Shown: positions 23,922 to 49,949 of the stretch, piece by piece
Position numbering within the stretch: position 1 is the first letter of the stretch
How the letters are laid out: each line of letters begins with the position of its first letter
NCBI GenBank assembly: GCA_009733575.1
Contig: ML769607.1
Span: forward strand, 1-64,000
Reading direction: 5' to 3'
From: Gymnopus androsaceus JB14
Lineage: Eukaryota; Basidiomycota; Agaricomycetes; Agaricales; Omphalotaceae
Length of the DNA: 64,000 nucleotides
Position numbers and translations under genes: made by a program
The notes under the pieces: generated by a model
The model's database searches: none
What the model saw: only the letters and a program-made list of their open reading frames with translations
What the model was told of the DNA's origin: nothing

Positions 23922-24310
23922 CACACCGCCAATCATTATGCTTCAGCCAGGCTGAAGCATAATGTGAAATGGTTAATTTCAATACATATATGAAATGTGA
24001 TTTTTCAGAGTACTACGGAAATAATATACTCCATTAAACAAACGAAATAAAAATTTTCAGACCATCTGAAGTGGGAAGCTTCAGCCAGGGTCCGAAACCT
24101 ATTGTTTCGGACAGAAGCCGAAACAATTACCTTTAACCGGGCTGAAAGTCTACCCGAAAAGGTATATTTCACCAACTAGGCAAAGCATTCCATTTCAGCA
24201 GCCTTTTCAGGGCAATGCTGAAATGACAAAGTTCATCTACGTGGCGGCCAAGCGGCAGCGTAGCGTACTCCGTAGCATACACCGAAGTGTGTAGCGGAAG
24301 CTGGTGGAAA
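23922..24310 (+). repeat. Left terminal inverted repeat with hairpin end
   Basis: TTATGCTTCAGCC-AGGCTGAAGCATAA forms a near-perfect palindrome 12 bp inside the end. Many TTTCAGC/GCTGAAA and CCGAAAC motifs follow. Inverted partner of 45880-46249. Confidence 0.85.
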
Positions 24311-24599
24311 TACTTCATATATAAACATTTAGAAGTACTACATTATACATACACCAAATGTTTTATTAGATTCAAATATCTACACGGAAAGCCTATTGAA
24401 AAAATGCTGGAATCTTCTATTCTCAAAACGGAATAGGAGCTGCTAGTCACGGTTTCGATCCATCTTCCACCAGACATCAAGGCCACTTTTTAATAAAGGT
24501 TGATCGATGCGTGTTCGTCAGATCTGCTACGAGAGTCAGCAAAGGCTTGAAACGAAGAACAGACACGGATGGGTGTGGAGCAGACACTCACATAGTAGA

Positions 24600-27500
24600 C
24601 ATGTTACTCGTCAATTTTATTGACACCTCGGTTGGTGGGACTGACAAACACCATGGCATATTTTTTTGAAGAGCTGCCGCATATCCTTGCCCAAATCGGT
24701 GGCTATGATCATGCGAGCGCGACGAGAGACCAACACCCTGCACGGAGTCGAGGACACCCAGCCAGAGCCAGAGCCCAATCGCAAGGTACAGCCCTCCATA
24801 CGCAATACCCGAAGTACCCCAAAGGATCTGTAACAAGAACGATTCGTAAGAGCGTTCATTAGATGGGCGGTCGCCGCAATACGCACATGGCACCATCTTG
24901 GCGCACCCAGTCCCACCGCAAATATAGGCAGAAGCCACGTGTGTGTTTTACTGAAATGGGTCAAAACGAAGAGCATGAGGGACCAGACACCAATAAAGAA
25001 GGCGAGAACAAGAAGTAGGATTTGCCATGTCGGAAGTTCAGAGTTCCACAAGAAGTGCCAGTTCTGACCGTAGGGCTAAACATATGAATCTATCAGTTAG
25101 AGCTGCAACGAATACTGCTGAAAGTACTTACACCACTGAGCCAGTAGCTTTGCAAAACGACCGAAACGAGGAACCAAATGACAATCCTTCGGCGGAAAAG
25201 TGTTCTCAGGAAATTGGGGACCTTGGGAGGGGTTTGTCGGTAATAATCTACAGTGATACAGTGTTATAGAGTTGGCGAAATCAGGGAACAAGTGAATGGC
25301 ATACCAGGAAGGCCATAAAGAAGAAGGAAGAAGAATAGAAGCATAGAATGGACAACGACCACACGGCAACACAGATCCAAGGTGGTGTATAGTTAACAGC
25401 TTCGGTATTGAGCTTATAACCCCAATACCAAAGAGCCGCGACCCAAAGCTGCTGAGATCCTTGCACAATACACGCCCGCAGCATCCAAACTTCCGTCCCA
25501 GCACCCTGAAATTTATTTCAGTTTCTTTTACCTGGAAAGCGTTTGCATTAGCAGCTTACTGCTTCTTCACCGAAGTTGAGACCAAAAACCATGAAGGCAG
25601 CCGCAGAAGCAACCGTGTAACACCACGTCGCAATGTTGGACAAAATCTTATATGATGGATTTAGAGCGGTAGAAACCGAGTAGAAACAGAGGGCAATCCG
25701 ATGAGGAAAAACGCGACACCGAAGAAGATCCATGGGGCAGAAAGAACATAGCGTTGATACTGCGTCAATGGAAGTCTTCCATGCGCTGCCGCCATTCAAC
25801 AACCGGGAACCTTTGCACAGCAGAGCGAGCACGGAGATTTGCGCGCTCCTCAGTAGACTTGAGAGCCATTTTGATGGTTTTCGTCAATTGTGATAACATA
25901 TGAGCCGTCGAACTGGATTCCATGGGGAACCACTAGAACATGCGTGTGTAAGAAATAAACCAATGAAAAGGGTATACAAAACTTTTCCAAGCCGGCATAA
26001 GACCTAATCCTCCAAGACGAGAACCCACACCCAGAGCACCCTTGCGAACAAATTCAACTGCCACCAAACTGAATGGCTCATCATGAGAAGGAATGAGTGC
26101 AAAGTCTGCACTGCTGAACAAGAACTGAGGAAGAGCAGTGAACTCTGCTTTCGAGAACACGGGATCAGGATACAATTCCAATCAAGCGAGCCAGCTTCTC
26201 CGACGCGAAACAACCATATAAAACAATAACAGGTCCAACAGTAATGAGCTGGATAGAGGGGCGCTTCTCCAATCTATCCAAAGAGAGGTAAGAGCATGGA
26301 ACACGCAGTGAAACAGACGACTTACAACAAGGGCATAACATCAGCAATAAGATTAACACCTTTCTGCTTGGACCAATGACTAACGAACACAAATAGATCA
26401 GACTTAGGATCCTGCTTCAGTCCTGCCCATTCCTGAGCTTGTCGCTTGTTTTCAGGGCGAGCGGATTTGGCGACATGATCAACTTCGACTTCCTTTCGTC
26501 CAAGGCAGCGATATCAGTAGGATCAGGGTTGGGAAGCGAGTCCACATGCTTCAAAGTCCATAGAGCAGGATAACGGGCCCAACTACGTTTTCCATACTTG
26601 TCAGAAACACAGGCGACACCGATACTCTTTTGGTGCACACTAATGAAACAGGCAGCGGCATGCAACAGATTGAACGTGTTCCCGAATTGGACGTATTTTG
26701 TGCAATGTTCCTTGCTGATATTGAATGCCAAGCAGATCTCTTTCATCTCCTCCTTGGTACGCAGAGGCCAGAGACCTTGGAACTCAGCATTATGCGAAAA
26801 AAGACAGACTGGGAGGACTTGAGGAAGGAGATGGGAGCTAGTGCACCGTGGTAGTCATTGACGTGATATATATTGACGGTGGGGTTTCGGCAAACTGTGG
26901 CAGCAATTGCTTAGTTCCATGTCGAATAGAAGATGGCGGAGCTAAGATCGTCCATGCGAGCGGGATAGGGATCCGCCTTGGTCTGAGCACGGAAGACAGG
27001 ACTATTGAGGATCACATAGGTGATGTTATCCAAGACGTGCGTCTCAACCTCGATCAGGTATGGCTCTCCAAATATAATGACTTCGATAGGTTCGGCGGGA
27101 TCACTTGCAGGGTATTCAATGTCCTTGACCTTGGGCACGACCCATAACAAGTCGACATCCGACATCGCTTTACCGATCAGACTCGACATGACACCAAGCC
27201 CACCAATCTTGACCTTCAGTTTCCAATCGATGATCTCGTACTCCAGGGTGGCAATAAGGACTTTTCTACGCTTGCTTTTATCCTCAGGCCAGCTTATAAT
27301 ATCGCTATGATGTTTATGACTGAAGAACTTCTTCTCAGACTTCTTCTCGGATATGGCGGCGCCGTCTTTGGAGTCGGATGATTTCCTCCAAAGATTGGGA
27401 AATAGTTGGTTTTGGCTTTAACACCATATTAATTGTACCTGATGCCGTAGAAGGACCACATGAAGATGAGAACAGCGAGAGTTCCGGTAATGAGGGGGAT

Positions 27501-30500
27501 GGAGACAAGCAGCGCGTACGTGGTAGCGCCAATGCCTTCTCAACCCCAAGGTGCAAGGTACCAGGTTATGGTACTGCCATTGACGTACACCATCCACGAG
27601 AGATGGGGCTTGGGAGGGGCTGACATGTTCAGGTAATTGGTGGCTTCAGTGTTTGGCGGCAAACAATCAAGAACACCATCACTATTGACGTCGCCATAAT
27701 AGAAGTCGTCCGATTCATCCCATACGTGGACTTGGAAGTATGGTGGGCCAGTAGTACATGAACAACCATCCCCGACCTGCGAGAATGTGTTTGCTATGCC
27801 TTGATTGTCGCCCCATTCGTTGAAAACACCAGTGGCAATAAATTGAGGGACGCGACGGGTAAACCCAGACCAGCCATAGTCAGCATGCACTGCATGTGTA
27901 CTGGATAGCGCAAGCGCACTCCAATCTATGAAATAGTAAGCAATCAGAAAGAAGACCATTGGCAAAAACATACATTGCACCATGATATGATCTCCATCCC
28001 GGAACAGATCCGCGTCTGCAAAGAATGTTGTTTTGACCATCGTCGTGTCTTCCCAAGTAGTCCAGCTGGTCCAATTCTGGCCGAAATTCCACGAATATCG
28101 GAACATATCAGTGCCAATGGCTGTATGGGTGAAGATGTAGTCGTCTCCACTTTTAGTGAGGGAGGAGCTGTTGTAGTCACTCTCGGGGAATACCATGACG
28201 TTAGTCAAGAGTCCCTTGCGTAGCAGCACCGTGTCAACAGCCTAAAAGATGGTCAGTACAATTTTGGATTATCTCGGGAGACAACATACTCCAGTAGAAA
28301 TACCACCAGTTGAGGAAGGCTTGTTCAGCGTTATAGTCAAGATACCATCTGGGAAATTGGTGAGCGTCGCGTTCCAGACCCACGTCGTATGGGAGACTCC
28401 TTGTACTATGACATTGGCCGAGCTGGTCATATTTCCACAGCTGACATTGCTAATTGTCGGCACAGATCCAGTACTCGAAGTTGACATGTTCATCGAAATG
28501 CTGTTGGTTACACCACTACAGTCCATTTCTGTATTGAATTCGAAAGAAATGTCAACGCTGGTGCCACTAGTCTCACTGTTTGGCCAGGGGTGAAAGCGGT
28601 GAGAGCAGGAAGGGGAGCAATCCAGTTGGCCACCGGAACCAAGGCTTTGAATCCGTAGCCATCCATAGTGACGCTGCCCAAACATCCAGCGTATGGAGGT
28701 GCATTATCATCAAAGAAAGATTTTCCGGATTCCTCAAGAATGTAAGTCTCGTAAGGATAGAAAAGATTCTGGACGATAACTTCAGCTTGATAAGGAGACG
28801 AAATCCAGGAGCCATTATCACAGGGTAGGTCCAAGTAATGGTCGAATTTTCATTGCTGTAAAGCATCCAGACCACACTGGTGTCGCTCCCCGTCAGGTTT
28901 TGTGCTCCCGTCATCTCGGAGCGAGAAACAGACCAGAGACCCATTTCCATCACAGTACCATTGGAACCTTCACGCTGTATATATTCGGTCCAATTTCCAA
29001 GCTGAGTCAAAAGATAGCTATCCTGAAGAGCAGCATACTGAGTCCGCAGGTAGTTATATTGAGCGAATAAATGACGAGAGTCTGCGGTTGGATCAAAATG
29101 GTCAAGAGTGCTCCAGTCATCGTAGCAGCCAAGTGCTGACTTGTCGAGGGGCATATTGAAGTACTGGTCTGATCCTAGCTGGTAGCATCCATGACGTTTC
29201 CATGCCTGGTTTGCAACCATAGATTGACGTCTATCTCGAATATTAGTTCTTGAAGGTCATGACTAGGAAGAAACCCCTCACCCATAGAGATAATTGTTTG
29301 CAGTGTCATCATATGCATAAGAAGGCTTGCTCCTCTCCATAGTAGTACTGCGAAGAGACATGAGCAAGTTGAGGGCTTGAAAAAAAAAGAAGAAAAAAAA
29401 GGAGCGTACCATGACCAGACCAGGCATTACTAACAATGTTATGAATGTTTCGAGGGCAGAACGCTGAGTACCATTGGCCAAGCTAGGCCATCTGAACAAG
29501 TCGAAATTGCTGGTACCGTACATATGACGAGGGTCCAATTCATTGGTTTGAGAATTGATAAAGTCGTTATCCACGAAGATCTTGCTCCAGGCAGTGATGA
29601 AGTTGGTGTCAACCTCGTAGGCTACCGCGAGATTACCGTCCATTCCCAAGAACCGAGTGAGAGCTCGATATATGGAATAATGGAAGGCACAACCATCCAG
29701 CGCCACATTGCCTTCATCTCGCAAAAAGAATGAAGACTCGGAAGAAGTCAGATTGCCTGCAGCGTTAATGTTGGTTGGCCATTGGGTGGGAGAAAGACCT
29801 CAACCACTGGAAAAAAGAAATGAGAAATATATATTTAGACTTAATCCAAGACTGCTCACAGGTAGATTGAACCAAAGGTGTCTCCCCCTGTAACTTCACC
29901 AGGAATGTAGAAATTATCCTTCCCGAGATTAGATGCACATTTACAAGTAGCGGTCGCCCACGATAGCGAACAGTAACTAACCAAACCTAAGTGGCCTTAT
30001 TGATACAGATAGCGTCAATATCCAGCGTGGTGATAACCATGCAGGAGAAGGTGGACAGCCTGTCCAGGACTGACGTTTTCCACTCGCGAAGTCGATCCTG
30101 AATGGAGGCAAACTTTGATAGCTCACGCTGCCAGTCCGGGTGGCACCAACAATAAATTTGGGAATAATGGTGCCATCATTGTCCCAGAAGGTTGGATAAA
30201 CACATGAATTGTTTTGGGTGTTGATAATCTGAGTACATAGGACATGTTCATCAACAAGATAAGAAAGGTGAAGTGAATAGCCTTACTTCAAAATCCTTGT
30301 ATGCAGTAAAATTCCAAGGCATGTAGGACGGAAGTACCCATTCTGTGTCGTACTCATTGATAGAGAAGGGAGCACTCATGTTCAGGAATCTTGAGAGACG
30401 TCCGAAGCACGTACAAGAAAAACGGTAGACTGACTAACCCTGTGAAACCCAAGAGGTCGGACATTGTACCCACTGTCAAGTCGGCCATAAAGTACATTCC

Positions 30501-30845
30501 GCAAGCATGAATTTCATCAATAGTTGCGACCCAGTCATCCCATGTTCCCCAATGCAGATCGAGGACGGTCATGTCGAGAGGGGAATAACCTGCATAGATA
30601 TAAGAAAACACCATAGGAGTCTCGTTCAAAAACTCACTGTCAGCTTGCCATATCATGTTGAGGAAAGGAGTACCAGCCACGTAAATTACTTTGATACCCA
30701 TGCCTTGAAGGTAGTCGAAGCGAGAAACGAGACCTTTGAGATCACCCCCAAAGCGAAGCTGAGTTTCCCTATATTCCCATTCGTAGATAGTGCCAAAAAA
30801 GTCATTGTTGGAGGGGTCACCGTCTGCCCACTTGTCAAGGAGGAT
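24600..30845 (-). pseudogene. ags1: Alpha-1,3-glucan synthase relic (5'-truncated)
   Basis: Ags-type enzymes make cell-wall alpha-1,3-glucan at the plasma membrane. Order on the minus strand: GH13 amylase-like part (DGDPSNND, GGDLKGL, FDYLQGMGIK near 30700; DGCAFHYSIYRALTRFLGMDG near 29650; HFDPTADSR near 29090), beta-rich linker, TM segment near 27500, GT5 glycogen-synthase-like part (KYGKRSWARYP near 26580, [16 protein letters not shown] near 26090), then multi-spanning C-terminus (FSKTHTWLLPIFAVGLGAPRW near 24930). Introns are retained. It is broken: the signal peptide and first residues are missing, there is a 1-nt frameshift near 26505, a TGA at 25767-25769 in DFH-R-RS (CGA to TGA), and the 3' end after GVLDSVQGVG is lost. 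It joins directly to an Spt6 piece at its 5' end. Confidence 0.9.
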
Positions 30846-31235
30846 GCTCGTCCATGTAATACGAGTCATCAACCCCAAGACGATTGTAGGAAGCGGTCAG
30901 AGAGTTTCGTCTTTCAAGGAGAGAGCGGTACTTCTGTCCAAGAGCATAGATGCGCCATAAATCTGGGAGGGAGAGGAGTTCTTGCCGGGGAGAGTGGGTG
31001 TCGTTGATATCAAAGTGGGATATGTAATCACGCCTGTGCGTCCAGATATAGGGAACCTCATACTCATCGACGAACATGGACTGGAGTGCAAAAGTGACTG
31101 CCATTACAAGCTCTCCTTGGAGATGCTAACATGAGCCATCAGCACTGAAGAACTGTTTGTTTGTCGGTTGATAGACGGAGGGCAACCCATCGAGCTCCAT
31201 CTTTGTTGATATCTTCGGTGGTTAGAGTTTGATGA
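30838..31235 (-). pseudogene. spt6: SPT6 transcription elongation factor fragment
   Basis: Encodes MFVDEYEVPYIWTHRRDYI, then ELLSLPDLWRIYALGQKYRSL and SYNRLGVDDSYY, the hallmark segment of Spt6 (histone chaperone/elongation factor) just before its helix-hairpin-helix core. Only about 120 residues are present. The piece ends at about 30845 and the next bases encode alpha-glucan synthase in the same strand, a chimeric junction. Upstream TAG/TGA interruptions show that it is not a gene. Confidence 0.85.
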
Positions 31236-31399
31236 AGGGATATGCTTGCAGCGTAGGGGAAGGAAGAGGTTGACACCTCATACGTTCCGGTGTGTCCTGA
31301 GCTCGAATGAGATTGTCATCCTCGGTCAGCAGATGTTCGCTGGTTCAAAGACCTAAGGGGACGTTAAAAGAGAAAAACAAAATTAGCGTAGAGATATAC

Positions 31400-32242
31400 G
31401 AACGTTATGAAAGGACATGTCTCTCTTGTTCGAATTCTTCATCGTCAGCGACTAGAGCCCAGCAATCTCGTCAAAAACTTGTTGTCGCCCGAATTAAGCT
31501 GATAGTTCCCGAGCCAGTAATCATGTGTAAAACCATGAAGGAAGTCGGGATCTTTGAGGATGATGGTTCGATACACTGCAGTTCGTCCAGAGAGACAGGG
31601 TAGCCTGCTGTCGATGTGTGTCGCACATGCAATCTCAATGTTCCAGATGGAAAGTCTGAACATGGCGAACATTTCCCATATCGTCATCATTTCCCCTACA
31701 GAGTATACACGCTGGCTGGTACTGACTCTACAGACCTTCTGGTCCTCGAAGCAGGCCAAAATGTAAGTAAGTAACGTGGGTGGTGGCCAAATAGCATCGT
31801 CATCAGCGAACACGATAATGTTGGTCGTCATGTTTCTAATCCCATGGCTCATTTATAGTCTTGTGTTGGCAAATGGCACCGTCAAAACGCGTAGTCGCTC
31901 TGGATCAACAGCATTGGTCCGAGCATCGATAATAAGAACTTCCTTTGGTTCCCCGACTGGCCCTCGCCTGCATCTTGGGACCATAATAGTCACGTCTTCC
32001 TCGGCGATATAAGTCGGAATTTCTGGTAATGGGACTGGGCGATACGTGAACGAGGCTGCCAGACGAATGCAGTACCAAAGGTAGCAATAAAATCTCAAGG
32101 AAATCGTGAACTTTCGCGTAAAAAATAGCAAGGCAATTACACCAAATGATATAACTGAAAAACATCATTAGAAATGGAAATATCGGCTGTTGACTTCAGG
32201 AAAACTCACAAACAGGAAAGTTATCAGAGGTCAAGTAGAGCA
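31400..32242 (-). pseudogene. GT2 polysaccharide synthase (Cps1/hyaluronan-synthase-like) relic
   Basis: The start is at about 32242 (MLYLTSDNFPV), then a GTGAGT...TTTCAG intron, a TM helix (ISFGVIALLFF) and RPVPLPE. DVTIMVP follows, with about 25 residues missing before PKEVLIID, then ADDDAIWPP (the donor-binding DxD), SQRV, CLSGRTAVYRT and GFTHDYWLG. The frame has a TAA between FANTRL and GIRN, and it stops before the QxxRW motif. Such enzymes polymerise surface polysaccharide at the membrane. This copy is non-functional. Confidence 0.85.
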
Positions 32243-33261
32243 TCCCGAGTTTTAGGCAGACGGAGACCGCCGGCAACGGTTGGATAGAGAAAGGCTACAA
32301 CTTGGGATGGGGTGAAGGAAGAAAGCAAGAAAGAAGCGTAAAGTGGATTATGCGATCAGTTTGGCCCTGCTGGTAGAGAAAGTTGCAGCTGAGGGCAATT
32401 GGATGACATGAGTCGAGGCAGATGGAGGCAGCAGAACAACAATGAAGATCGTCGTAAAGCCGCTACATCTCCTCATGCTGTAAATGAATGTATTTTGTTA
32501 GTTTAACTATAACGAAAGGCAGTGCGCATGGGCTCACCTGAGAGCTCAATCCTCAGCACACCCTCCGAGAGAATAGAATGAATGGTTGGAAGCTCGCTAG
32601 CGTTGAACGCGAGCGAGAGATAAGGGGAGTAACAATCTTTCTGGTAGCCTTTTTGAAGGACTTTGGAGCCAAGAAGAAGCAATCTTTTTGTTTAAAAAGA
32701 TAATAAGCTATAATAATAAGTCGATCATGGGAGCTATACATTTTGACAATATAGTGACCTTATCTAGCTGACTTTAGCGCTCAAGTGTCAACTCTATCAT
32801 CTTCCCTTCTTTCTGGCATCAGTCATCCCCACCTTCCTTCCGCCCACTAGCTGCAAAACAAACCTTTTTCGCACTCGAATTATGTCGATTAGACATTCAA
32901 ACTTTGTATCGTACATGCTTGTAATCTTTTTCTCCATTTATAGTTGCGCTAACTTTCTTGCATTGTCTAGGAGAAACTCGAATGCCACAGAAATCATCAT
33001 ATTTCAGTCAAGTCTCTCCCTCTAAGTACTTGAACGATGTAACAAATACTTCCTACGGCACTCAGTGGTGCTTGACCAACGCACGTCATCTCCCTTTGTA
33101 TTCCTTGCAGTAATTCAAGCTTGGTATACCGCGGCGTACTTGGCAACACCGTGCTTCAAGCCACGTCTCTTACGTGTCATCATCCTAAAGGATAGGTGCT
33201 ACAGAGGCTCAGTGTAGTACGTATGCTTTTTTGGCTTCCATCCAATAAAATTTTTATATGA
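32243..33261. other. Non-coding stretch inside the 22-kb element
   Basis: No gene recognised; perhaps the former 5' flank of the GT2 piece, plus AT-rich sequence. Confidence 0.4.
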
Positions 33262-34160
33262 GTGGTTTTTATAGCTCAGCTACTCAGTTGGACTACGACT
33301 GCACGATGTAGAGACCTAAATTGGCCTCAAAACCCCGTCTCCTTGACCCAGTCATTGTCTTTGTTGCCGACTCTCTCTCACACCGACTCCGCTGCAGTCA
33401 TAATCCTTGTGTTTGGGTTCTGGGCTCAGCTTTCACTGCTCAACCTGTTGAAGCGCGGAGTCTCGACGACTGGAGAAGTGGAAGCTTGTAGGTTGAATAG
33501 TCTGCAGAAGTCGAGTTGGGATAACTTGCCTATCCATTCCTTCGTGCTACATGCAGGATTGGAGGTCCTCGGTAGCTCATATACTGCAGTTGGAATCACT
33601 CACATTGACGGCTGACCTCGACATTACAAATACATTCCGTTTCCTGTCATTGATCAGCATCTTCGAAACAACTTTGTCTCCCTACACCGCATCCACATCC
33701 CTCTCGTGCGCCCGCATGCTCTTCTAACCTACAATTTCACAACCCGCGCCCACATTCTCACTCACCCCAACACCCTGGTTCGCTCCGCCGCCCCCAGACA
33801 CACATCGTGTACTTGATCAGATTACACAGGAGAACAGGCTTGTTCTTGAACATGGTAATAGGATGTCTGGGAGGGACTAGATGTACAAGGAGCGCGCGCC
33901 TGCTTTTTGATGTCATCTGAGTCGCTATCCGCAATGATGCCCAGGATCAAACTCGGACGCAGTGGGGCTATACGTTCCCTCCTCATCGGATCCTGCATCC
34001 TTGCCGCACTTCTCTCTCAAGTCCAATTGCAATTCGTAGTCTCCAACGTTAACCCTACCTACGTCTCTCAGCCAGGTGAACTAGCCCCAACCAGCTATAA
34101 TCTCCAGCTCCAATCCCCACCCGATCGCAGAAAGTCTGGACTACGGTTGAGGTAGCCGAA
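33262..34160 (+). pseudogene. Unidentified decayed coding sequence
   Basis: Several frames with protein-like character follow one another with stops between them: ILVFGFWAQLSLLNLL near 33400, FRFLSLISIFETTLSPYT near 33645, and MPRIKLGRSGAIRS with a hydrophobic helix near 33940. This may be a membrane-protein relic. Source family not recognised. Confidence 0.35.
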
Positions 34161-34832
34161 ACCTGTCAAAGATGATTCAGTTTCAACCAGCGTCATTGAC
34201 TCTCTTGATGGGTAATTTGGATGCGGATAATGGAATATTAGGCGCAGGCATTACGGACGACCATGGTGTATGACCTGAATCTGTAATCGAGGAGTCGTTC
34301 TCCGTTTGCATCATCCTCGTCATCCTCGTCACTATCATTACCTCCTCAACCCGAATCACGATCCAAGTCTTTCAGATTGAATCCTTGTATACCATGTTTA
34401 TTCAATATACGACATTTACAAGGAGTCGGCCTTTCTCTGATTGACGACTTACGGGCCTCATTCAGCGTTCCCAGATCGTTCCCTTTCAGACGTTCGACCT
34501 TTGCCCAGGATGTTTTTGGGTACCCCAAGATGCTCTAACAATGATGAAGTCGGTATCGTACACGCATGCGGACGAACTTTGATTTGAGAACTGTCGGTTG
34601 ACTTTTTGGCTTTTTCGAGTTGTTCGTTCGCGGAGTATAATGTACGTCCACTGCAGTATTTCATTTCTGTCTTCACGAATACTGACCATCCTCTTTACAA
34701 AGGTCGTGCTATGATTTTAATACCACTGTGGAGTCCTGATTGTGTTTTACTGTGGCCACGACACTTCCACGACTTGATGCCATCTAGTATTTATACTGCA
34801 GCTACCCATATACATCTCTATCTCTCACAACA
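34161..34832. other. Unassigned sequence, possible minus-strand relic
   Basis: A minus-strand frame near 34440-34690 reads SLLEHLGVPKNILGKG and shifts frame soon after. It looks once-coding but I cannot name it. Confidence 0.3.
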
Positions 34833-35904: not shown

Positions 35905-36475
35905 TGACGTTTGCAGCTGCGCGAGGAAAGTCTATCGAGATGGAAGATGTCGTTTATCTGGCGCGGTTCGAGAACGACCGTACAATCTCTTTCATCCCTC
36001 CCGACGGCGAGTTTGAGCTTGATGAGCTACCGAATCTCTACTCCTGTGAAGCTTCTTACAGTATATGGGTCGAAGCCGCGATTGAGAGTCTTCGAGGTTC
36101 AAGAGTAAGCTATTTTTACTTTAATCTATTATTCATCGCTTTCAGAGGTCAAAGTTGTTGCTCAGTCAACAACGCTCAACTTCAAACAATGTTGAAATAC
36201 ACGTTCCCGTCCCTGACGACGCCGACTCTTCGAAATTCCGGGTATGTTTGCTCCTATATGTCATGCATTTCTTATGCTAAAATCTAGTAGGCATCAACAG
36301 GTTCCATCCTATATACGGAAGGTGGCAACAAGGCAGTAGGGGCGATGATGCAGCCAGCATGGGCAGCTGGCGTCGCTCTGGCAAACGATGACAATGGGTC
36401 TCCGAGTGAGGAAAGAGCGGTTTACTTTGAATGTGCATTTTCTGCCAGTCGTTCCAACGGTTTTAGCTAAATTGT
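35905..36475 (+). pseudogene. apm1: AP-1 adaptor mu-chain (mu-homology domain) fragment
   Basis: Segments in order: DVVYLARFEND and RTISFIPPDGEFEL near 35985, MSYRISTPVK in the next frame, IWVEA near 36066, NNVEIHVPVPDDAD near 36195, and GSILYTEGGNKAVGAMMQ near 36300. These are cargo-binding mu-domain signatures of the clathrin AP-1/AP-2 mu subunit. A GTAAGC...TTTCAG intron is retained at about 36103-36146. Frame changes and missing ends show it is a relic. Confidence 0.82.
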
Positions 36476-37500
36476 CAACAACAGTATTCAATGTTATTCT
36501 GATCCTCTTCCCGCTCACCTACCTCCTTACACTCAACATCACCTCTCTTGTTGTATGACCTATCCTCCTCATTCTCGTCGCTATATTTGAATCTGCTCTT
36601 GCCCGTTCCCGAGCCACCAATAGGAGATACTTCAGCCCGCGCGCGTCTTCATAAGCATGAATGTATGTACCTCTAAATGGTCAAGCTCAGACTAATCAGT
36701 GTCCGCATGTTTCCTCGCCACTCCGCATAAAACTGTTCGTTGCGAAAAGTGACGGGATGTCAGATTGCAGGAGAATAACAAATGTATTGCAGGAGGCGGG
36801 CCAGCCATTGAGTTGATCGAGTAAAGGTGGTTAATTTGAGTCTCCGGGGTGGACAGACTTACTTAGAGCTGATAGTCAGAAAAGGGTGCATCAGAAGTTA
36901 AAAGGCTTAACATACCTTCTTTCCTGCCAGATTATTACGATGTGCGATGTGCATGATTTTCTGTAGGATAAGAAGAGCTCGTGATTCACTGAAATAATAC
37001 TAACCGAGAGCCCATAGCTTCTCCATCCAGTGGTTTTCCTACAGCATGTATTAGTGAGGATAACAATGAGATCGTTGAACGTTGTAAGCGTGCGATTCAA
37101 TTGCGACTCTGACTTTAGCGCCGGCCGCTACCTTTTTGTTCCTTACTGTATTACTTACTTATCTTATTATCTTTTTGAACAAAAAGCGACCATTATTGCT
37201 TCTTCTTCTCGGCTCCAGAGTCCTTCAAAAGGGTACCGGAATCTGACTGCAATGATCCATGCCCCATCTCTTCCTTCACCTCTCGCTGACGTTCAACGCT
37301 AGTGAGATTCCGATTGGGTGGAAACCAAATTATGTTCGACCAAGATGCAAACTTTCATACTTTCGAGGTGAGCTGTGATTTTATTTGCAGTTTATAATCT
37401 ATCCATGTTCTCGGCGTACAGACTCACTGGCCACAATAAACTCTATCTCAACCACGCTGATCTTATTCTTCCTGCGATCTTGTTCTTCCTTCTTATTCTT
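36476..37500. other. No gene recognised
   Basis: Short frames only; includes a pyrimidine-rich part near 36530-36620. Confidence 0.35.
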
Positions 37501-37695
37501 CCTGCTTGCTTCCTCTACCCAGCATCAATCTTGCTCAACAAAAAGGCATCCCAGACCCAGACCTTCCTTTCCTTGTTGCCATTGCAGAGGTGTCGACGCT
37601 GCAATTCAAGTTCAGATATCTCAGTTACTTGACGGAAGAAGAAACATACTGGGAAAAGGCGGTGCGTTCATTGCGATGCAAGTTCATTGTGTGGG
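37500..37695 (+). pseudogene. GH47 class I alpha-mannosidase fragment
   Basis: SINLAQQKGIPDPDLPF followed by EVSTLQFKFRYLSYLT and YWEKAVR matches the GH47 ER mannosidase segment that includes the LQLEF..L..LT...YW.K signature. Only about 65 residues remain and no catalytic core is present. Confidence 0.65.
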
Positions 37696-38020
37696 AGACT
37701 GACCAAAATTCAAAACCATCAGACATCATACTACTAATATAGCGTGCCTCCGCCTTCAAAGCTTCATTGTAATTCTAAACCGTCCCTGAACCGTCCACTT
37801 TCTACACTTTGACTTGCTCCATTCGCGCTTGTCTAAAGATTATCCTACATTACATGTCCTATCTAGAGATTATTATTATTATTATTATTATTATTATTTT
37901 GGTGGAGCATTGACAGCTTGGGTCAAGATGACATTGTTGCTCTCCCTTGCCTGCTAACCTAGAGATTATCCTCCATTACGCGTCCTGATATCTTCCTAAG
38001 CGCGACAAAGCGGTCAAAGC
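37696..38020. other. Spacer with (ATT)n microsatellite
   Basis: An uninterrupted ATT run lies at about 37869-37899; otherwise nothing. Confidence 0.6.
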
Positions 38021-41000
38021 ATGGGGTACACTCCACTCCAGCTTCGATACGCGATAAACCATATCTTTCTGCCACTCAAATTACCGCAGGTGCGAAAAAT
38101 CGCGTTTATTTCATTCTCTACAAGTTTTACTGAGTATTCTGCAATGTAGGAAAACGATCAAAGGGGAGAACACGATGCGGTAATCTCAAGTCTATGTCTC
38201 GATGCGTCAAAACCATTCAGACAACGCTTGGATCAGGAGAGCAATGTCAAGTGGGGTGCTGTAAACGTCCAGAAGCTGCTGAGAGACTTTCATAGTCTCC
38301 AGCCCACAAATTTTCTAGCTGCCAAAGATGTCGCGAAAGCTTTGAGGAACATGAACGCTGGAGGTTTGTGAACACCCCCTTTTCGATATGCCTGTAGCTA
38401 ACTGATTATTTGGATTATTAGACTCTCTTGCGCTGTTGGTACGCGCTCAGAATACTGGCATTATCCTTCGACGCGACTGGGGCGATGGTATCGATGAAAA
38501 AATCATTTACGAGTGCTTCGAAGTCACTCTGCCAGTATCCGACGTTATGTCCACCAAAAACAAACTCGTCACGTCTTTTCCTGGCCCCGTGATCCATTTT
38601 CCGGCCGAAACCTTCGATAGCAAGTACTTTCAGAACGAATTTGCCACGTTTCTTGCGGAAATGAACGACGAAGACAATGATGAGGATTCGGAAGACGAGG
38701 GCAGGAGAAGAAAGTCGGGGCTTCCCGCTGCGCATCCAGGAGAAACCCAGGATCCAGTGTTCATTACCTCCCTTCTTGCTGGCATCATGCATGGTTTAGA
38801 AGGACGCGGGGAGAACGTGACGCGCATTAACATGAGAGTTGCCGATGATGTGTTGCTCAAAGGATTGGATAAAACCCCGTGGAGAAGATCCGCGTTATGG
38901 TTAGCTATAGTTCTCCGAGTCGCGATTCAGACGACTTTACTTCGCGAGGATCCTACCTTGCAATTGTACAAGCAGTTCATGGTCTTTCTACACAGATTCG
39001 TTCTCTCGCTCACTCTCGGAGAGAAATTCGATTCGGATATCCTCTTTACGATGCAGGCGAAAATGTGTCGAAGGTTGGCGAAGCTCGGAGATGATGTTGC
39101 CGAGTTCCTCGTCAACTATACGAACAACGTTAGTGAACGGGTTGGAGACAACCTGCAGCGGAGGTGGACCGAAATCCAGCAATTAGAGGTCAAACCGCTT
39201 AGTGTCCTTGACTCACCTTGGGCTTCTGATCAGCTAAACGTTGCAGCTGACACCACTTTACGCCTCACCAACTCAACAGCCCGAATCTCACTGTCCCTCG
39301 GTAATTCTTCAGTGAATTTAGCCGCTATAAGCTACGATCCTCATGAAACTAACCGCCTTCAAAACGTTTCTCATTTTGGAGATCTGACTGCTTCAAAATT
39401 TGAAGCTGCATTCCAAGCAATCTCGCCGATTTCGAATTCGTCGTCGGGCGTGGCTCGTTGGCTAGTTGGGTTGGAAAGACGAATTGCTCCTGGTGCAACA
39501 TCTCGTGCACAGGAGAGTGCTACGAACCTTGGTTGTATGAGGAAATATGAAAAGTTTGCCTCCCCGTAACATAGGGATAACCCAGAAGATTTGAGCTTGA
39601 TGGTGTTGACTATGTTCGAGCTCTGGGTTGCCATCGACAAAATCGCTGTAGTGGCATGTCCTCTCCTTGGAAACTATTCCCCGGAGGTTCCCATCGACCA
39701 TTCGCTCACTACTTCCAACGCTGCTCTACTCCACCCGATCCTTCTGCAAAATCCATTGATCTCAAGCGATTGCTGGCTGTCAATGAGTATGTACGTTTGC
39801 GACACCAAAATGCAATGTACATGGACGCTTTGGTCTTTTCAGAGAGTATCGGCTCTTCGTCATTTGCAGTCAAATACTTTAATCAGGATGCTACGAGGGA
39901 GCTCCAAAATCTAAAAGCTCAGATTGAGTGGGATGCTCAAGAGATTCGTGACTGTATTCATCGGGACTTGGAAATGAAGACACGAGAGCGCAACCGAATT
40001 CGCACTCGTTGGGTAAACATACCTATGATTGCGAGAAGCATCGATTGCAGACTTAGCTGGATGGATTTAGTGTTCCTGTCCATGAATGGCCGTTACCGGA
40101 GGTCGATGATCATGCGAAAAGGGTGGTCTTTGAGCTACGCTTATCTTGAACATTTACGCAGTGGAGAGCAGCGACGGCTCTACTGCTATGGGATGTCTGT
40201 ACGCCCATGGATAAAAGGAATGAGTTCGATCAGAGCAGGCCTTCTGTCATCCTCAATTCCCGCAAATATCTTTTCGAGTACCTGCTGCAGATTATGACCT
40301 TGGCATCCGCTTCTAGTTCTGCAAAGTTATTTGGCTCAAAGAAACTTCTGACCACTCACCAAGAAATTTTTCTTCCTGGTGAAATGAAATGGCGGTTGTA
40401 TGAACCGAGAAGTAGATTTGGGTACGGGGCTCCTCGCCAACTTCAGGCGTGAACGGGACTATGTTCCGAGAGGCAGATACAACGCAAAAGGCGACGTTAC
40501 CAATCAGCACTAACCCATCCTCAATTTACTTAAGAGCTCAACTGCAGTATGCGGTTTCTGCAACTTGCCATACCTCCAATCAAATTATCGCTTCCCAAGA
40601 TCTCTGTCCTCCCCAGCTTCCCCTCCATGAATACATGTCCTTTGCTAGTCTAAGGAGTGGTGCTTGCATCCAGTGGATATCTCTTCTTAGTGAACTTCGC
40701 AAAGGTGCTCTCTCGTGGCAAACAGAGGAGGTTGGGGACTTTGGTGTTGATGCTGATGTGGCAGGTTATGTGTATCATTGAGGAGGAGGGAACGAGGGAC
40801 CTGGAATGGCATGTTGACCTCAAGGATCTTCAATTCGGGCAGGCTCTCCTATGGGAAATGGGGAAACTCCTTTGCCGAGTTAAAGGAAACTGGAAAGAAG
40901 TCGTGACAGTCCGGACAATCATCCTTCTGACCTCCCAATTGCTGGCTTCGACGCGACATGTAGAGGTTAAAGAGCTTGGCTACGCGCTGATGAGAGAGTG

Positions 41001-41200
41001 TAGAGAGGTGACATGGGAATGGGTTGGGCAATTGGAAGAGAAGCTGGTGATTGTATGGCGCACTTATCTGACGATCCTTCTTGATCCGCATCTCACGAAT
41101 CCCCTCTCATCAGGCTTGATAGAGAAATCAAAGACTTCTCTTAAGATGCTAACGAGACCGAGTCTAGCATCGCAACTGGGTCGCCTACGCCTTTAAAAAG
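38021..41200 (+). pseudogene. Giant DUF6606/DUF3638-type protein, N-terminal third, broken
   Basis: Clean 5' exons: 38021-38089 (LQLRYAINHIFLPLKLPQ), 38150-38363 and 38422 onward join in frame. They show the N-terminal domain of a fungal family of about 3000 residues (SLALLVRAQNTGII, SFPGPVI, RRSALWL, MCRRLAKLG). The family is widespread, with P-loop and protease-like parts further on; its role is poorly known. Decay: a stop at 39567-39569 inside FASP/NPEDLSLMVLT, a frameshift near 39700, another near 40050, and a TGA at 40147-40149 before FTQWRAATALLLWDV. Later pieces (QLPLHEYMSFASLRSG, TVRTIILLTSQLLASTRH) reach about 41190. The rest of the protein is absent. Confidence 0.82.
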
Positions 41201-41209
41201 TGCCATTGA

Positions 41210-42300
41210 TAAAGGAAAAGGCAGCAGTCCGAACCACTGCTACGAAACCCTCCGTCAGAACGTTTACACAACCGATCCTACACAGGCAATCTCTCCTCTA
41301 CCTATTTCCAAAGATCTCAACCCGTTCTTACCTCCTGGGACTAACCCTTCGAAATGGAATGGTCTTGTTGATCTTCGAAAGGCATCTGTGGTGACTCCAC
41401 AACATTCTCGTCGATTCAGGGAGCCAACTTCTTACCGGAAACCCACGACTCTGATAAACTTCGACGACATGTATGATTCTGACAAGTCTTTCATTGATGG
41501 TATCCCACCTGGCATGTCTCCTCCAATGTTGATGTCACCCGTCCGTCCAAAGCCTTCTGTGAAGCTTGGCCAAAATCTCAAGAAGGCTGCAGCTGCTTGT
41601 ATAATGGACGATATCGTCGCAGATATACAGGGTCGCCCTAGGCCATCGTCATCATTCCGACCTCGACCAAGCATTTTCAAGAGCACGATGATATCAGATT
41701 CGAGTATGAGCACCATACCAACACTGCCTTCGTTATTGTGATGTAACATGAGTAGCGGAATGGACACTGATTCGAGTTTGGAGAGTATGATGCGGCAGGT
41801 TGGACTTCGGGACCCTATTCCTGAACAGCAGCAACAGCAGCGAGGCTAGTCAAGCTCAAGCGCCGTGTCCAACTATTCCTCTCTTGCCCAATCTGGACAT
41901 GCAGGCCCTTCTTACGACACTGGTAACGTCAATGTTAACACAAACGACGACTTCCTTGCTCCTCCACATCAATACCAAGGTATGGGTGGTGTAGTAGGGC
42001 TCCAGAACAATTCCTACTACGATGACAATGATGATATTGTCAACAACACCGCTCATCCCTCTGCTGCATTCCTCGTGGCATCACAGACTAGACGTCCAAT
42101 GGACAACGACAACTCGTTTGATGATTCCATGGTTCTGGATCAAGGCGGTGATAATTCTTTTGACACCGATAACCTTCTTGGAGTCGGTGGAGGTGGAGCC
42201 GACGACCCAAACATGAACATGATGCACATTCCTGGTGCGTGGTGTTTCTGGTCCAAGCCATCACCCTTGCTGGACTTGTTATAGGCATGTCCTACGAACT
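41210..42300 (+). pseudogene. Possible DASH-complex Ask1-like fragment
   Basis: Segments GIPPGMSPPMLMSPVRP, KAAAACIMDDIVADIQG, STIPTLPSLL, SLESMMRQVGL and DNDNSFDDSMVLDQGG occur in order in more than one frame. The SPP.-M, DDI and SLESMM motifs recall the C-terminal half of the kinetochore DASH subunit Ask1 in basidiomycetes. Frames change around 41745 and 41850. Identity tentative. Confidence 0.35.
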
Positions 42301-42799
42301 CTTCTTCCTGGGCGCCATGGGCGTATGATTATCCCCATCAGGAGCAGCTCTCTCCTAGAGAGTTTGTTACCCACAAGGTGAGTACTGACATATCTGAAGG
42401 AAATCGTTCATTTCTATGTAGGAAGCTGCTACCAAACGTCACCTTGTTGCTCGGAAAGCATTGCTACATTCAACGTAAAGCACAAGGCGAAGCAAAGCTC
42501 CCCTCTGGGTACATTCTCAAGGACTCAATTACACGTGTCTTTTTGGGGAGTAATTGAAACCGTTCGCTTATTGGAACCCATCACATCATCATTGTCAGAA
42601 ATTAGTAGCAAAATCCGATGTTGGAGAGGATTGGCTGGTAGCTGGGGTGCAGAGACAACAGCCAATCCTGTTCCCATTCCATTCCCTAGGACTAACCAAC
42701 CAATATACTTCTACTTTCTCCATGTACGACTTCCCAAGATATCCCTACCCCTACCGTGTATCATATGATATGCAATTTTCAAGTTTTTCAAGACTCTCG
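42301..42799. other. Unassigned sequence between relics
   Basis: May hold a further decayed exon (LLLGKHCYIQRKAQGEAKLPSG near 42440 region); no family recognised. Confidence 0.3.
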
Positions 42800-43445
42800 T
42801 GTGCAGTGTTTTTTTAGACAAAAACTATCCAACTTGCAGTTTCTCCAATTGGCCCGAGGAACCAGTTCCTCCTGCAATGCTTGTTCTGATGACGCATGAC
42901 AATGCCAAACTCAGAGAGTGGGCTATGAAGCAAGCCTCGAGATCTACGACTGTTCCTATCTCTCAGAATGATGCATCGTCTCTTCCATTAAAGTGCATTG
43001 GAGATAATCCTGCTTTTACTTCCGGTCTGCAATCACCTAGCGGAACCAGTTCAGTCTGTCTAAGAACCTGCAACGCTATGGTCTTCATTTCACGCTGTCC
43101 TGTGCTTATTGCATCCAGCGCACCTTACATTTTTTACTTCAAAAGGGGTGGATGCTTGGCATGTGGTCAATGGCCACCTTCACGACCATGGTCTCGGTTC
43201 ATTTAGGTCTCTAAATTCAATCCGGTAGCTTATGTACTATAGAATTTAAGACCATTCTACAATGCTTCAATCGTATTTTGAAGCGCTTGGGAAAGATTAT
43301 TTGGCTTGGTGAAGGCCCAGAATATCCCCAAGTGGTCTTTGACGCTTTCAAAGATAATCCATCATTGAATACTCTCCTAAGTTGCGAAAAGGATCTTTCG
43401 GCCAATGGTTTTTCAACTGGCTACCGGAATTTAGCTGACCTTTTT
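42800..43445 (+). pseudogene. sen1: Sen1 helicase N-terminal region fragment
   Basis: MLVLMTHDNAKLREWAMKQ near 42880 and LGEGPEYPQVVFDAFKDN near 43307 match the large helical N-terminal region of Sen1-type RNA/DNA helicases, which act in transcription termination. The pieces lie in different frames with stops between them, and the helicase core is absent. Confidence 0.6.
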
Positions 43446-43960
43446 TGATAGCCACCAATTATGAGCAACAGGTGTTCAGTAGCAAGTCGGACTGGCGTGT
43501 GCGTGCGATCTCAGCCACCCATCTTCCTCTGCGTCTCCAGCACATCTAGGTGTCCAATGATCATGATGTCAAGGATGATGCTGCTTCGTATACCTATGTC
43601 CTTCCCAAGAATGTTCTGCCATTTATCACAGCATCCAATCTTCGTACCCAAGTTGCTGCATTCCTTTGCGGTGTTTCTCCCCAGATAACAAACAAGTGAA
43701 GGAAGTCAAGGTATGTTTGACGCTACTTGTGTATTGCATTTTTACTGAATTTGCGATAGGCTGTAGTCTGGGTGCCCCAGCGTGGCAGTAACAACAGTGT
43801 AGAGCTACCTCTCAACTGCCGAACGACGACTTTTTGTTAAAAGATCTCGAACCTCTCGGTTGGATCAAAACCGAAATATCCAAGACAAACTTTACGCGGG
43901 GATGACCTGCCAGTCCCCGAGATGCTGTTACGATTTCCAGGACAATGCACAATGCCATGA
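43446..43960 (+). pseudogene. prp8: Prp8 splicing factor C-terminal fragment
   Basis: [18 protein letters not shown], then [38 protein letters not shown], and VVWVPQRGSNNSVELP in three frames. The SPPDN, VPQRG and LPKN signatures belong to the Jab1/MPN-proximal C-terminal region of spliceosomal Prp8. Several stops and frame changes make it a relic. Confidence 0.78.
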
Positions 43961-44076
43961 CCGTTATTGACATTTCCACCTCCTTACCAAGGTCTCCTGA
44001 TGAGCCTGCCTACCTCCGTCCTTCTCCTCCCTATGTCAGATCACACATATCATGTACGTTTCATATTCTTTAAACA
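43961..44076. other. Short spacer
   Basis: Nothing recognised between the Prp8 and START relics. Confidence 0.3.
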
Positions 44077-45775
44077 TTGACCAAGATTAACTCCCTTCCA
44101 GTACTTACTTGGTCTCAAACCTCCGCAGCCACCCTCAGAGTCCAAACGCAAGACTGGAAGACTACATATTACTTGCTTCTGGCAGCACGACCTCCGGGCA
44201 ATACGGAATATCGGATCTTCATCATCAAACAGTCTTGGGTCTGCTCAAAACAACAACCAAACATGCTACTTGAATCCCTACACTCATCAGATATGGGAAT
44301 GGTGTCACTATTGAAAAGAATCGGTTCCAAATTGATCGAGAGGCGTTGACTATTGAATATTCAGTATTCTCTTACGGACCACCACAGCTCGCAAGGGCTG
44401 CAAGCTCTTCGAGATCAACGTCGTCGTCTTACTCATGCCATTGAGTGTTTTACTGTCTGTTGAAAGATGGGATGTACAGCTCTCTGCAAGAGCTTCATCC
44501 GAAGAGGTTGAGAAACTCCCGTAGATTGTACATGCCACACGAAGCACCTTATACCTCCTATCATCATCTCCTCCAACAACCACCGCCTCTCTACCTTTGG
44601 ATCATTGTCCTCCGCTTGGCGCATGCACCACTCATCGATGATCACTCTTTACTTAAAGTAAAAGTGGTGATTGAGATTTCGGGTCCTTCCAGTGGGCTGC
44701 GCTTGAATGGAGTTCTGCAGGTTATTAGAGAGCTCAAGGAAGGGCAGGATCTGTCTTCGCATGTTGTTTCCGCCGAGTCTATTCTGCCTGATGTTGGGAG
44801 CGCTACGGATATTAGTGTTCCTTCATCGTCATCCATACATGGGTCTGCTGCTACAAGCATTGCTTCGTTGTCCTCTACACCTCCGTTGATTTGTATCACC
44901 GCAGAGAGGAGTACCGAAAAGACGATTTTGTCAAGAGTTAAGAGGAATTATTTTCATTTTTCTTCGTACTTTTAAGAAACTGAAGCTAAATGGAACGCAG
45001 TAAGTTTTTTTTTTGATTTACCTAATGTGACTCTCGCCGCTGACCTTTGTCCTCACAGCTACCGAGGCTCGCGGCATCACTATAACTCAGGTTGATTCGA
45101 TAGACCCCACTTTGGTGGTATATCGAGCCGAAGCTACATTTGTTGGTGTAGGACTCTGGGATATGTATGGCGCTGTCGTTTCTCCCGGTGCAAGGAACTA
45201 TTGGGACAAGCCACATGACGCGGTGCTTTTGGAAGATGTCAACGAGCTGATGGAACTGTGGCACCTGAAAACTAAACCTGTGTGGCCTATAAAGTAGGCA
45301 TAGTCATTCTATTGCCTAGTACTGATTTACTTTTTACATAGTGGACGAGACTCTGTTGTACTCAAGACGGTCTGCAAATCCCCAACTACTACTATCCATG
45401 TCTTTTCCTTTTCTGCCGACGACCCACATTTGTTTCCCCATATCCCTCCACTAGATCCCAATATTATCAGAACCCAAGTGGATCTACGAGGCTGGGCTAT
45501 CGAAGCTTTGTCACCAAACACCACACTCCTAACACTCCTCGAACAATCCGATCCCAAAGGTTGGTTGAACAAAACCTCCATCCCAACACAAATGATCAAC
45601 GCGTTGGCTAGTATAGGTGAATTCGCTATCAAATGCGGTGGACCGCCGATTGTTACGAGGCTTACGGGTGCGAAAGCGATGATCTGAGGTATGATCACGA
45701 GAGGTTGAATTTTAGGTCGGAGTATGAGCCTTCGGCTAGTCGAAGAGTGGTTACGGATAATAGCAATCTTACAAG
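44077..45775 (+). pseudogene. START-domain (lipid-binding) protein relic
   Basis: The lipid-transfer START domain is clear: VYRAEATFVGVGLWDMYGAV near 45115, DAVLLEDVNELMELWHLKTK near 45215, then across a GTAGGC...CATAG intron NGRDSVVLKTVCKSP, HVFSFSADDPHLFP, DPNIIRTQVDLRGWAIEAL, LLEQSDPKGW and a CGGPPIVTRL tail. Introns are retained and join correctly (exon starting at about 45059, and the junction at 45294/45342). A 1-nt loss near 45678 shifts the C-terminal tail, and the N-terminal part (44077-44640) is in mixed frames. Such proteins carry lipids between membranes. Confidence 0.72.
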
Positions 45776-45879
45776 TAGTGTCTCTTGCTTAGCTTTTTTT
45801 GTGTACGTACCACATGCTTTTGAATGTTACCTGGTTTGCCTGTTTCGTAAAATCCAGTGTAAGCCTCCGCTTTCCGCTT

Positions 45880-46249
45880 TGCAGTTCAGTGTACGCTACG
45901 GTGTATGCTATGCTGCCGCTTGGCCGCCGCGTGGATGAAGTTTGTCATTTCAGCATTTCCCTGAAATGGCTGCTGAAATGGAACGATTCGCCTGGCTTAT
46001 GTAAGATACCTTTTTGGGTAGCCTTTCAGCCTGGTTGAAGGTGATCGTTTCAGCTTCCACCCGAAACAATAGATTTCGGACCCTGGCTTAAGGTTCCCAC
46101 TTCGGATAGTTTGAAAGTTTTTATTTCGTTTGTTCAATGAAATGTATTTTTTCTACGTTAGTCTGAAATTTTACATTTTGCTCATGCATCGAAAGTAACT
46201 ATTTCACATTATGCTTCAGCATGGCTGAAGCATAATGATTGGCCGTGTG
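45880..46249 (-). repeat. Right terminal inverted repeat with hairpin end
   Basis: Reverse-complement partner of 23922-24310, with the same palindrome (TTATGCTTCAGC-ATG-GCTGAAGCATAA) and the same order of subterminal motifs. Confidence 0.85.
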
Positions 46250-49945: not shown

Positions 49946-49949
49946 TGTG

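Follow-up and report, generated by a model that had tools for sequence, protein, structure and literature searches.

Giant CACTA-type units with captured host gene fragments in the mushroom Gymnopus androsaceus: a probable transposon family

How do fragments of some ten unrelated host genes come to lie side by side within 22.3 kb of a mushroom genome? This question is raised by a unit at positions 23922-46249 of contig ML769607.1 (called C225 here) of Gymnopus androsaceus JB14 (Omphalotaceae, Agaricales; assembly of 83.3 Mb in 934 contigs). The whole stretch of 64,000 nucleotides that was analysed is called the window, and other contigs of the same assembly are also cited by number (C2, C31, C792 etc.). 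An earlier reading, made from the letters alone and referred to as the sequence-only reading, had taken the unit for a large CACTA-like element that captures genes. This view is supported by matched ends with 3-bp duplications, by sister units, by an interior that was copied from many loci and by a related empty site. The unit was inserted as a whole, shares its ends with other units, holds duplicative copies of genomic DNA from many loci and decayed afterwards. It is concluded that it very probably belongs to a family of non-autonomous CACTA/EnSpm-type (Pack-CACTA) transposons of G. androsaceus which capture genes, have the giant size of 20.5-24 kb and would be mobilised in trans.

The unit is an insertion with exact ends

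The unit measures 22,328 bp and has the termini CACAC...GTGTG. Its inverted ends, estimated at about 370 bp starting CACAC in the sequence-only reading, were found to be 378 nt long and 83% complementary, and the ACG triplet which that reading had reported on both sides is present directly outside each end (Table 1). That reading had proposed to compare strains for presence and absence of the unit; a related empty site could be found within the same genome. When the two flanks were joined with a single ACG, they aligned end to end with C31:284474-284762 at 89% identity. The alignment crosses the junction unbroken (joined flanks GCTTACGCTTCC, C31 GCTTACACTTCC), with ACA instead of ACG on C31. 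Since ACG flanks the unit and the related site on C31 is uninterrupted, the unit was inserted with exact ends, and 3 bp of the target were duplicated. The duplication and the related empty site also suggest that it was mobile as a unit, as is expected of Pack-TYPE elements.

On C536 (14800-15400) a second copy of the left flank (83% identity) is followed by a family end. This copy contains many small indels and resembles an insufficiently polished consensus, either of this insertion or of a related one.

Several features of the ends are those of CACTA/EnSpm transposons. CAC...GTG terminal inverted repeats were found (CACAC...GTGTG, 30 ends aligned), 3-bp target duplications accompany five of five end pairs in addition to the related empty site, and the subterminal motif TTTCAG/CTGAAA occurs on average 5.6 times per end, compared with 0.3 times in Markov resamples (30 ends). 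Fungal EnSpm elements are described with CAC..GTG ends and 3-nt duplications (PMC12730594). Long inverted ends and a 3-bp duplication are not those of a Helitron (a helicase was not searched for). The triplet outside the end, read on the plus strand of the contig, starts with A at 28 of 30 ends in a count made by hand, in which nine of the 30 ends come from the five pairs and are non-independent. The choice of target may be non-random.

The ends define a family of large units

A genome search with the left end, in which the best 40 of 253 candidates were scored, gave short tip matches and 40 end matches of at least 78% identity. Five contigs carry two full ends that face each other, with unit lengths of 22.3 kb (C225), 21.3 kb (C309), 21.2 kb (C485), 24.0 kb (C366) and 20.5 kb (C183). 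The outer triplets are identical in all five pairs (ACG, AAG, ACT, ATT and ACT, respectively), so that a search for the ends as pairs, suggested by the sequence-only reading, had a positive outcome. The size range of the five pairs, 20.5-24.0 kb, is narrow. Thirty ends were fetched. Nine of them form part of the five pairs, and the other 21 are unpaired on their contigs. Of these 21, 19 lie on contigs that come to an end within 25 kb in the inward direction; those on C340 and C283 do not.

The inner segment of the end, which is conserved in the 30 aligned ends, matched the genome at 47 places with at most 3 mismatches (21 forward and 26 reverse; reversed control 0). The outermost 26 bp matched at 442 places (control 0). 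The short units that were looked at resemble miniature inverted-repeat transposable elements (MITEs): C183:80793-81360 has 568 bp with TAT on both sides, and C123:158092-158659 has 568 bp with its own 3-bp duplication and only the outer ~50-100 bp in common with the giants. Given the 442 tip matches and these short units, the tip is common to a MITE population and it is the ~370-bp end that marks the large family. The sequence-only reading had named ends occurring mostly as independent MITEs as evidence against itself; this holds in part for the outermost 26 bp, but the full ~370-bp end belongs to the large family. At C263:84912-85972 a full-type end and a facing tip lie ~1.06 kb apart (the position of the left tip was computed), and this pair may be a short deletion derivative.

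The interior is a mosaic of copied host loci

Window positions 25900-45400 were used as query in a donor search in which the best 39 of 57 candidates were scored; 24330-25899 and 45401-45850 lay outside the query. By local alignment, 17,506 of the 22,328 bp align to eleven other loci with 79-95% identity, two short extra pieces included. Consecutive blocks meet within 8 bp at nine of twelve boundaries, with overlaps of 7, 4, 8 and 4 bp and gaps of 2, 2, 1, 1 and 2 bp; two of these nine boundaries fall inside one donor. The family tip could be identified in none of the eleven fetched donor stretches (0.5-5.9 kb each). Host coding DNA from loci without transposon ends, which characterises Pack-TYPE elements, is thus present from eleven loci. 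The copied genes still exist elsewhere, and capture was therefore duplicative.

Most of the relics named by the sequence-only reading could be recognised in domain searches. Those of the GT2 synthase and the DUF6606-type giant have Pfam matches both in the window and in the donor, AP-1 mu is matched in the window itself and its donor encodes an adaptor mu protein, and Spt6, Sen1 and Prp8 are identified by domains of the donor genes. The GH47 relic is recognised by Pfam and by a PDB mannosidase, and its closest counterparts among the genome matches listed are only 72-75% identical. For the alpha-glucan synthase (AGS) the window contains an Alpha-amylase match; the match to Glyco_transf_5 is below the Pfam cut-off, and the full name is our assumption. 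The aligned donor skips 50 bp at the 7-bp overlap within this fragment. A START domain is present in the donor of the last fragment, which was seen in one orientation and not in both as had been stated. The suggested Ask1 relic was not confirmed, the piece from C69 giving no hit in Pfam, NCBIfam or protein searches. Donors on C7 (DUF6593) and C191 had been missing from that list; the searches with the C191 piece gave no hit either. Positions 24300-25750 are probably the 3' end of the AGS gene, with 24617-25075 presumably as its membrane end. For 24617-25075 no hit was obtained in Pfam or in further searches.

Captured genes are genomic copies that decayed

The parent genes for which the sequence-only reading had proposed to look were found at the eleven loci, and introns were compared in one of them. 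The AP-1 mu donor contains two in-frame stretches without counterpart in the solved protein, with the DNA GTACG...GCAG and GTAAGC...TTTCAG. The captured copy still has both GT...AG inserts, as would be the case for introns that were retained. Capture through a retro-copy is rejected because of these introns.

The DUF6606 donor has an open frame of 963 aa. Of the two stretches captured from it, the first has 4 frameshifting gaps and 1 new stop, and the second has 2 of each. Five captured stretches were tested in total; each has 2-7 frameshifting gaps and four have new stops (donor frames were taken from stop to stop with introns unmapped, so some gaps may fall in introns). In all five, changes at third positions exceed those at the other positions. 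Decay together with the third-position excess would fit constraint on the donor side only. An ordinary functional gene cluster is rejected, as the captured frames are decayed.

A public gene model, BT96DRAFT_1000768, spans part of the mosaic, and 841 of its 842 residues could be read from thirteen exact stretches of the window. It fuses pieces of the DUF6606 giant, the C69 gene, Sen1 and Prp8. The model could illustrate what such units might offer to the host. In practice, gene models in public records of such genomes may be transposon chimeras.

Sister units share modules and a palindromic core

To 8.6-10 kb sampled from each of the C183, C366 and C309 interiors, 20 of 20, 39 of 202 and 40 of 76 candidates were scored, respectively. 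The match list for C366 lacks the query's own location, so such lists are incomplete. All three interiors are patchworks of pieces that are 67-100% identical to other loci. Many pieces abut within a few bases (at least 8 near-exact abutments in the C183 sample, read by hand) and some modules are common to several units. C485 was assessed from shared blocks and frames only.

Both the left block and a part of the AGS piece recur in C485, in the order in which the window unit has them. For the AGS piece, identities are 93% between donor and window, 93% between donor and C485, and 91% between window and C485. These values would fit one old AGS capture inherited by both units, which three sequences cannot prove. 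On C311 the AGS and GT2 pieces are present and the stretch between them is absent. From the apparently inherited AGS block and the stretch lacking on C311, growth of the units appears to include inheritance and deletion besides new capture.

Copies of a palindromic core, CTCGCTAGCGTTGAACGCGAGCGAGAG, are found in both orientations within four units (C225, C309, C485 and C366), and C311 holds a single copy. Among the matches listed, DNA matches to it are also found on C340, C389 and C455, all of which carry family ends.

Tnp2 gene DNA is found on the inner side of some ends of this type

The sequence-only reading had found no transposase in the unit. Among the genome matches listed there was indeed no Plavaka, KDZ or Tnp2 match in C225:23922-46249, nor was there one in the frames scanned with Pfam (not every frame was scanned), and the proteins of eight Plavaka loci showed no homology in the five elements, two partial elements or the window. 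On these matches and frames the unit is non-autonomous, like Pack-TYPE elements. Frames of at least 190 aa in the sister units resemble host gene pieces when compared by eye.

Genome-wide, 33 matches to Transposase_21 (Tnp2), 150 to Plavaka and 161 to KDZ were obtained. On C792 a Tnp2 gene (PF02992, E 4.9e-12) lies 7.6 kb from a family end; the best match of its frame outside this genome is 89% identical and comes from one contig of a source labelled jgi. A search with the DNA of this gene, in which the best 40 of 82 candidates were scored, located it at six or more places (C792, C782, C429, C867, C122 and C75; 79-87% over the aligned pieces). At four of the six (C792, C782, C429 and C867) a family end lies downstream of the gene in the same orientation. 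In an estimate by hand, 40 ends with 12 kb each cover 0.6% of the genome, so that far below one of the six Tnp2 places would be expected beside an end by chance. As to a DDE transposase sharing the ends, which the sequence-only reading had proposed to look for, Tnp2 gene DNA lies inside this end type on four contigs and the domain on two of them, but no copy with both ends was seen.

Just past the Tnp2 frames of C792, a 28-bp match to the palindromic core was observed (L067:3261-3288). Its score is 33.7, compared with a maximum of 27.4 in 60 Markov resamples and 16.6-20.2 at seven donor loci; it may be a relic of an ancestral unit.

A T5orf172-like stretch below the Pfam cut-off is also present on C792 (L067:5561-6154). 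It has relatives beside family ends on C782, C357, C369 and C179, and another one downstream of a Tnp2 match on C428. It is possibly a second CACTA gene. Plavaka was rejected as an evident partner, since the candidate on C123 proved to be the 568-bp MITE (the C437 candidate was not read).

Mobilisation, capture and alternative explanations

The following course of events is proposed. Tnp2 transposase from relatives with the same ends would bind the TTTCAG-rich ends and move the unit in trans, as may be expected from what is known of CACTA elements. Cargo would be gained stepwise whenever a copy that was excised or broken has an internal gap repaired and the repair moves to templates elsewhere on the chromosomes, by way of 4-8 bp of microhomology or of near-blunt joins. 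Internal deletions would trim the cargo later. Template switching in gap repair has been argued for animal Pack-TIRs, in which microhomology at one or both breakpoints is reported for 190 (67.6%) cases (PMC8277862).

Several observations weigh against the assignment to mobilised CACTA/EnSpm-type elements or against parts of this course. The strict CACTA pentamer is present at none of the 30 aligned ends, all of which start with CACAC or CACAT, and for CACTA elements of rice and maize the duplications are given as 5 nt (PMC8903248). In the interior, C69, C76 and C7 match at 79-84% and may be related to the true donors instead of being these donors themselves, C305, a contig with a family end, is as close to the START piece as C27, and the palindromic core is absent from the C183 unit. 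Template switching is a step that we infer from the junctions only. Concerning the transposase, the matches of C429 and C867 to the C792 gene begin at about query base 1073 and 1247, respectively, both downstream of the Transposase_21 domain, and neither contig appears among the domain matches, so that the domain occurs together with an end on C792 and C782 only. C122 and C75 are without a listed family end. A transposase flanked by both ends was not observed in any unit (the start of the contig truncates C792, and for C782, C429 and C867 the analysis did not extend to the DNA between Tnp2 and the end). Tnp2 itself could be cargo, and the C792 cargo beyond it includes a captured-looking dehydrogenase piece. 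Finally, the matches listed include one KDZ frame within the C311 unit and Plavaka frames that are located 12 kb inward of the C437 end and directed away from it.

The strongest competitor accepts the same kind of element and replaces template switching by fusion of neighbouring copies after aberrant excision, a model proposed for Arabidopsis Pack-CACTA elements (PMC13317346). Recombination between copies would give modules that are common to related elements in differing contexts, as was observed. As we understand it, however, the model would leave remnants of ends between the pieces, whereas in the window unit no homology to the ends was found apart from the ends themselves, and the copied loci are spread over many contigs. 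Fusion is therefore regarded as the less likely route of capture, with a minor share of the probability.

Less likely still is that Plavaka or KDZ transposases mobilise the units and that the association with Tnp2 is accidental. Both are far more numerous in the genome than Tnp2, single loci of each lie inside the C437 (Plavaka) and C311 (KDZ) units, and the domain is present in no more than two of the four Tnp2 coincidences. Among the matches listed, however, these are one coincidence each, compared with four of one Tnp2 subfamily in one orientation. Moreover, CAC...GTG ends with 3-bp duplications are the fungal EnSpm signature, whereas PlavakaB ends are given as CATCA...TGATG (PMC12730594).

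That the unit is a composite transposon, in which two nearby MITEs with the same ends mobilised the host DNA between them, is very improbable. Units with the same tip are abundant, as seen from the 442 tip matches and from the 568-bp units on C183 and C123 with their own 3-bp duplications. In a composite, either end would be a whole MITE and would have a second tip that faces inward. At the inner side of the 30 ends no such tip was found (at most 4 mismatches allowed), for which reason a composite MITE origin was rejected. The C123 unit matches the giants at its outermost part only, and the interior is a patchwork of many loci and not a single flanked stretch. An assembly artefact, with contigs misjoined in repeats, can hardly be credited: many family ends do lie near contig ends and the C536 copy is as indel-rich as a poor consensus, but five independent pairs have matching outer triplets, a related empty site exists, the junctions lie inside single contigs and adjoining blocks keep the same order across elements.

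A wider proposal, which goes beyond the Pack-CACTA family itself, is speculative and seems to us rather improbable as a whole. CACTA units would then form a genome-wide gene-shuffling system. Serial capture by template switching would enlarge them to a preferred 20-24 kb around a palindromic module that is inherited, and they would share, trade and delete modules and supply the host with expressed chimeras such as BT96DRAFT_1000768.

Comparison with known systems

The family behaves like plant Pack-CACTA elements, and the CACTA features that were tested are present except for the strict pentamer and a complete transposase-bearing copy. The kind is already known from plants and animals; the host, the size and the number of donors are unusual. 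Pack-CACTA and other Pack-TYPE elements are likewise non-autonomous, with CACTA-type ends around host gene pieces, often from more than one donor per element (PMC8903248, PMC13317346). These accounts describe them from plants, whereas here the host is a mushroom, the units have 20.5-24 kb and one unit holds pieces from eleven located donors. The soybean CACTA element Tgm-Express1 has CACTA ends around pieces of five unrelated host genes with exons and introns kept and chimeric splicing demonstrated (PMC1947982); it has 5.7 kb and five genes, whereas the present unit has 22.3 kb and eleven donors.

Pack-MULEs of rice and Pack-TIRs of animals are also inverted-repeat elements filled with copied DNA. 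They belong to other superfamilies, and the Pack-MULEs reported in 2004 are given as mostly 1-2 kb with none above 7 kb (PMC6431247). Enlarged En/Spm elements of the red alga Chondrus crispus are CACTA elements of 16-20 kb, but have 4-5 open reading frames of their own, and no mosaic of host fragments is described in that account (PMC6431247). Helitrons also capture other sequence, in maize up to 39 kb with nine gene fragments (PMC6431247); they make no target duplications, and the intact Helitrons of Pleurotus are reported without host gene fragments (PMC4289320). The size of the present units is unexpected because DNA transposition is said to lose efficacy with cargo above 6 kb (PMC6431247).

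In fungi, transduplication of a host gene by a DNA transposon is known from hAT elements with a captured histone H3 gene in Pseudocercospora and relatives. This concerns one gene, a hAT element and ascomycetes, without a multi-donor mosaic in the account given (PMC6710886). Fungal EnSpm/CACTA elements of rusts and Agaricus share the CAC...GTG ends and 3-bp duplications, but the members discussed carry TET/JBP genes and no multi-gene mosaics are described there (PMC12730594). As far as these sources go, many-gene capture by inverted-repeat transposons is a habit of plants and, on a smaller scale, of animals, and the fungal cases are single genes or Helitrons without host fragments. No fungal Pack-CACTA or Pack-TIR was found in the open-licence PMC literature, judged partly by title and the start of the abstract. 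Further papers on capture in fungi reportedly exist, for example on Fusarium Helitrons.

As dozens of ends, five complete units and located donors are available in one genome, the age, order and mechanism of capture can be worked out. One fungal genome thereby lets one ask directly whether transposon-made chimeras become genes.

Features of the unit and its surroundings

The features of the unit are collected in Table 1. Rfam and tRNA scans of the window gave no matches.

Table 1. Positions in the window of the ends, modules and captured fragments of the C225 unit, and of the gene model within it.
Feature	Position	Strand	Evidence
Target-site duplication ACG, left copy	23919..23921	.	Flank comparison; related empty site
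Left terminal inverted repeat (378 bp, starting with CACACCGCC) with TTTCAG/CTGAAA as subterminal repeats	23922..24299	+	Inverted-repeat search; 30-end alignment; motif count
Block common to right ends of C309 and C485 elements	24300..25750	-	92-99%; 24617-25075 no Pfam hit
Alpha-glucan synthase-type fragment, C2:868944-863766	25751..30844 (25751-30147 + 30141-30844)	-	93-95%; Alpha-amylase Pfam match
SPT6 fragment, C5:542453-541813	30847..31462	-	91%; PF14641 in donor
GT2 synthase fragment, C76:200013-201001	31459..32365	-	83%; PF13641 in window and donor
Module common to C309 element; holds palindromic core 32586-32705	32567..33184	.	83%; DNA match
Fragment of DUF6593 gene, C7:500876-503459	33178..35769	+	84%; PF20236 in donor
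AP-1 mu fragment, C91:178633-179281, two introns kept	35772..36313	+	80-86%; adaptor mu in donor, PDB/Pfam matches
Fragment from C191:98026-97708, unnamed gene	36306..36623	-	91%
Second, inverted copy of palindromic core	37163..37311	.	DNA match
GH47 mannosidase fragment	37461..37742	+	Pfam E 2e-7; PDB mannosidase
DUF6606 giant-gene fragment, C228:96627-99938, three pieces	37743..41046	+	82-91%; PF20255 in window and donor
Public gene model BT96DRAFT_1000768, 842 aa	39612..43696	+	Spans pieces of four captured genes
Fragment from C69:39023-40224, unnamed gene	41043..42232	+	79%
SEN1 fragment, C74:75970-76682	42738..43431	+	91%; PF12726 (SEN1_N) in donor
Prp8 fragment, C159:142712-142264	43433..43872	+	91%; JAB/Prp8 in donor
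START-protein fragment, C27:264286-262501 (C305 equally close)	43875..45603	+	88%; PF01852 in donor
Right terminal inverted repeat, 378 bp, ends GGCCGTGTG	45872..46249	-	Inverted-repeat search
Target-site duplication ACG, right copy	46250..46252	.	Flank comparison; related empty site

Outside the element, KDZ transposase matches were observed at 56668-57502 on the minus strand. To the right of the element there are also direct repeats at 49720-50198 and 52543-53791 (118-229 nt, 92-95% identical) and an inverted pair at 52361-52460 and 54935-55034. Near the start of the window, 1073-5073 forms a near-perfect palindrome that consists mostly of minisatellite repeats, with arms of 1893 nt (1073-2965 and 3181-5073) that are 99% complementary and separated by a spacer of 215 nt. 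By eye, the complementarity extends just past both arms.

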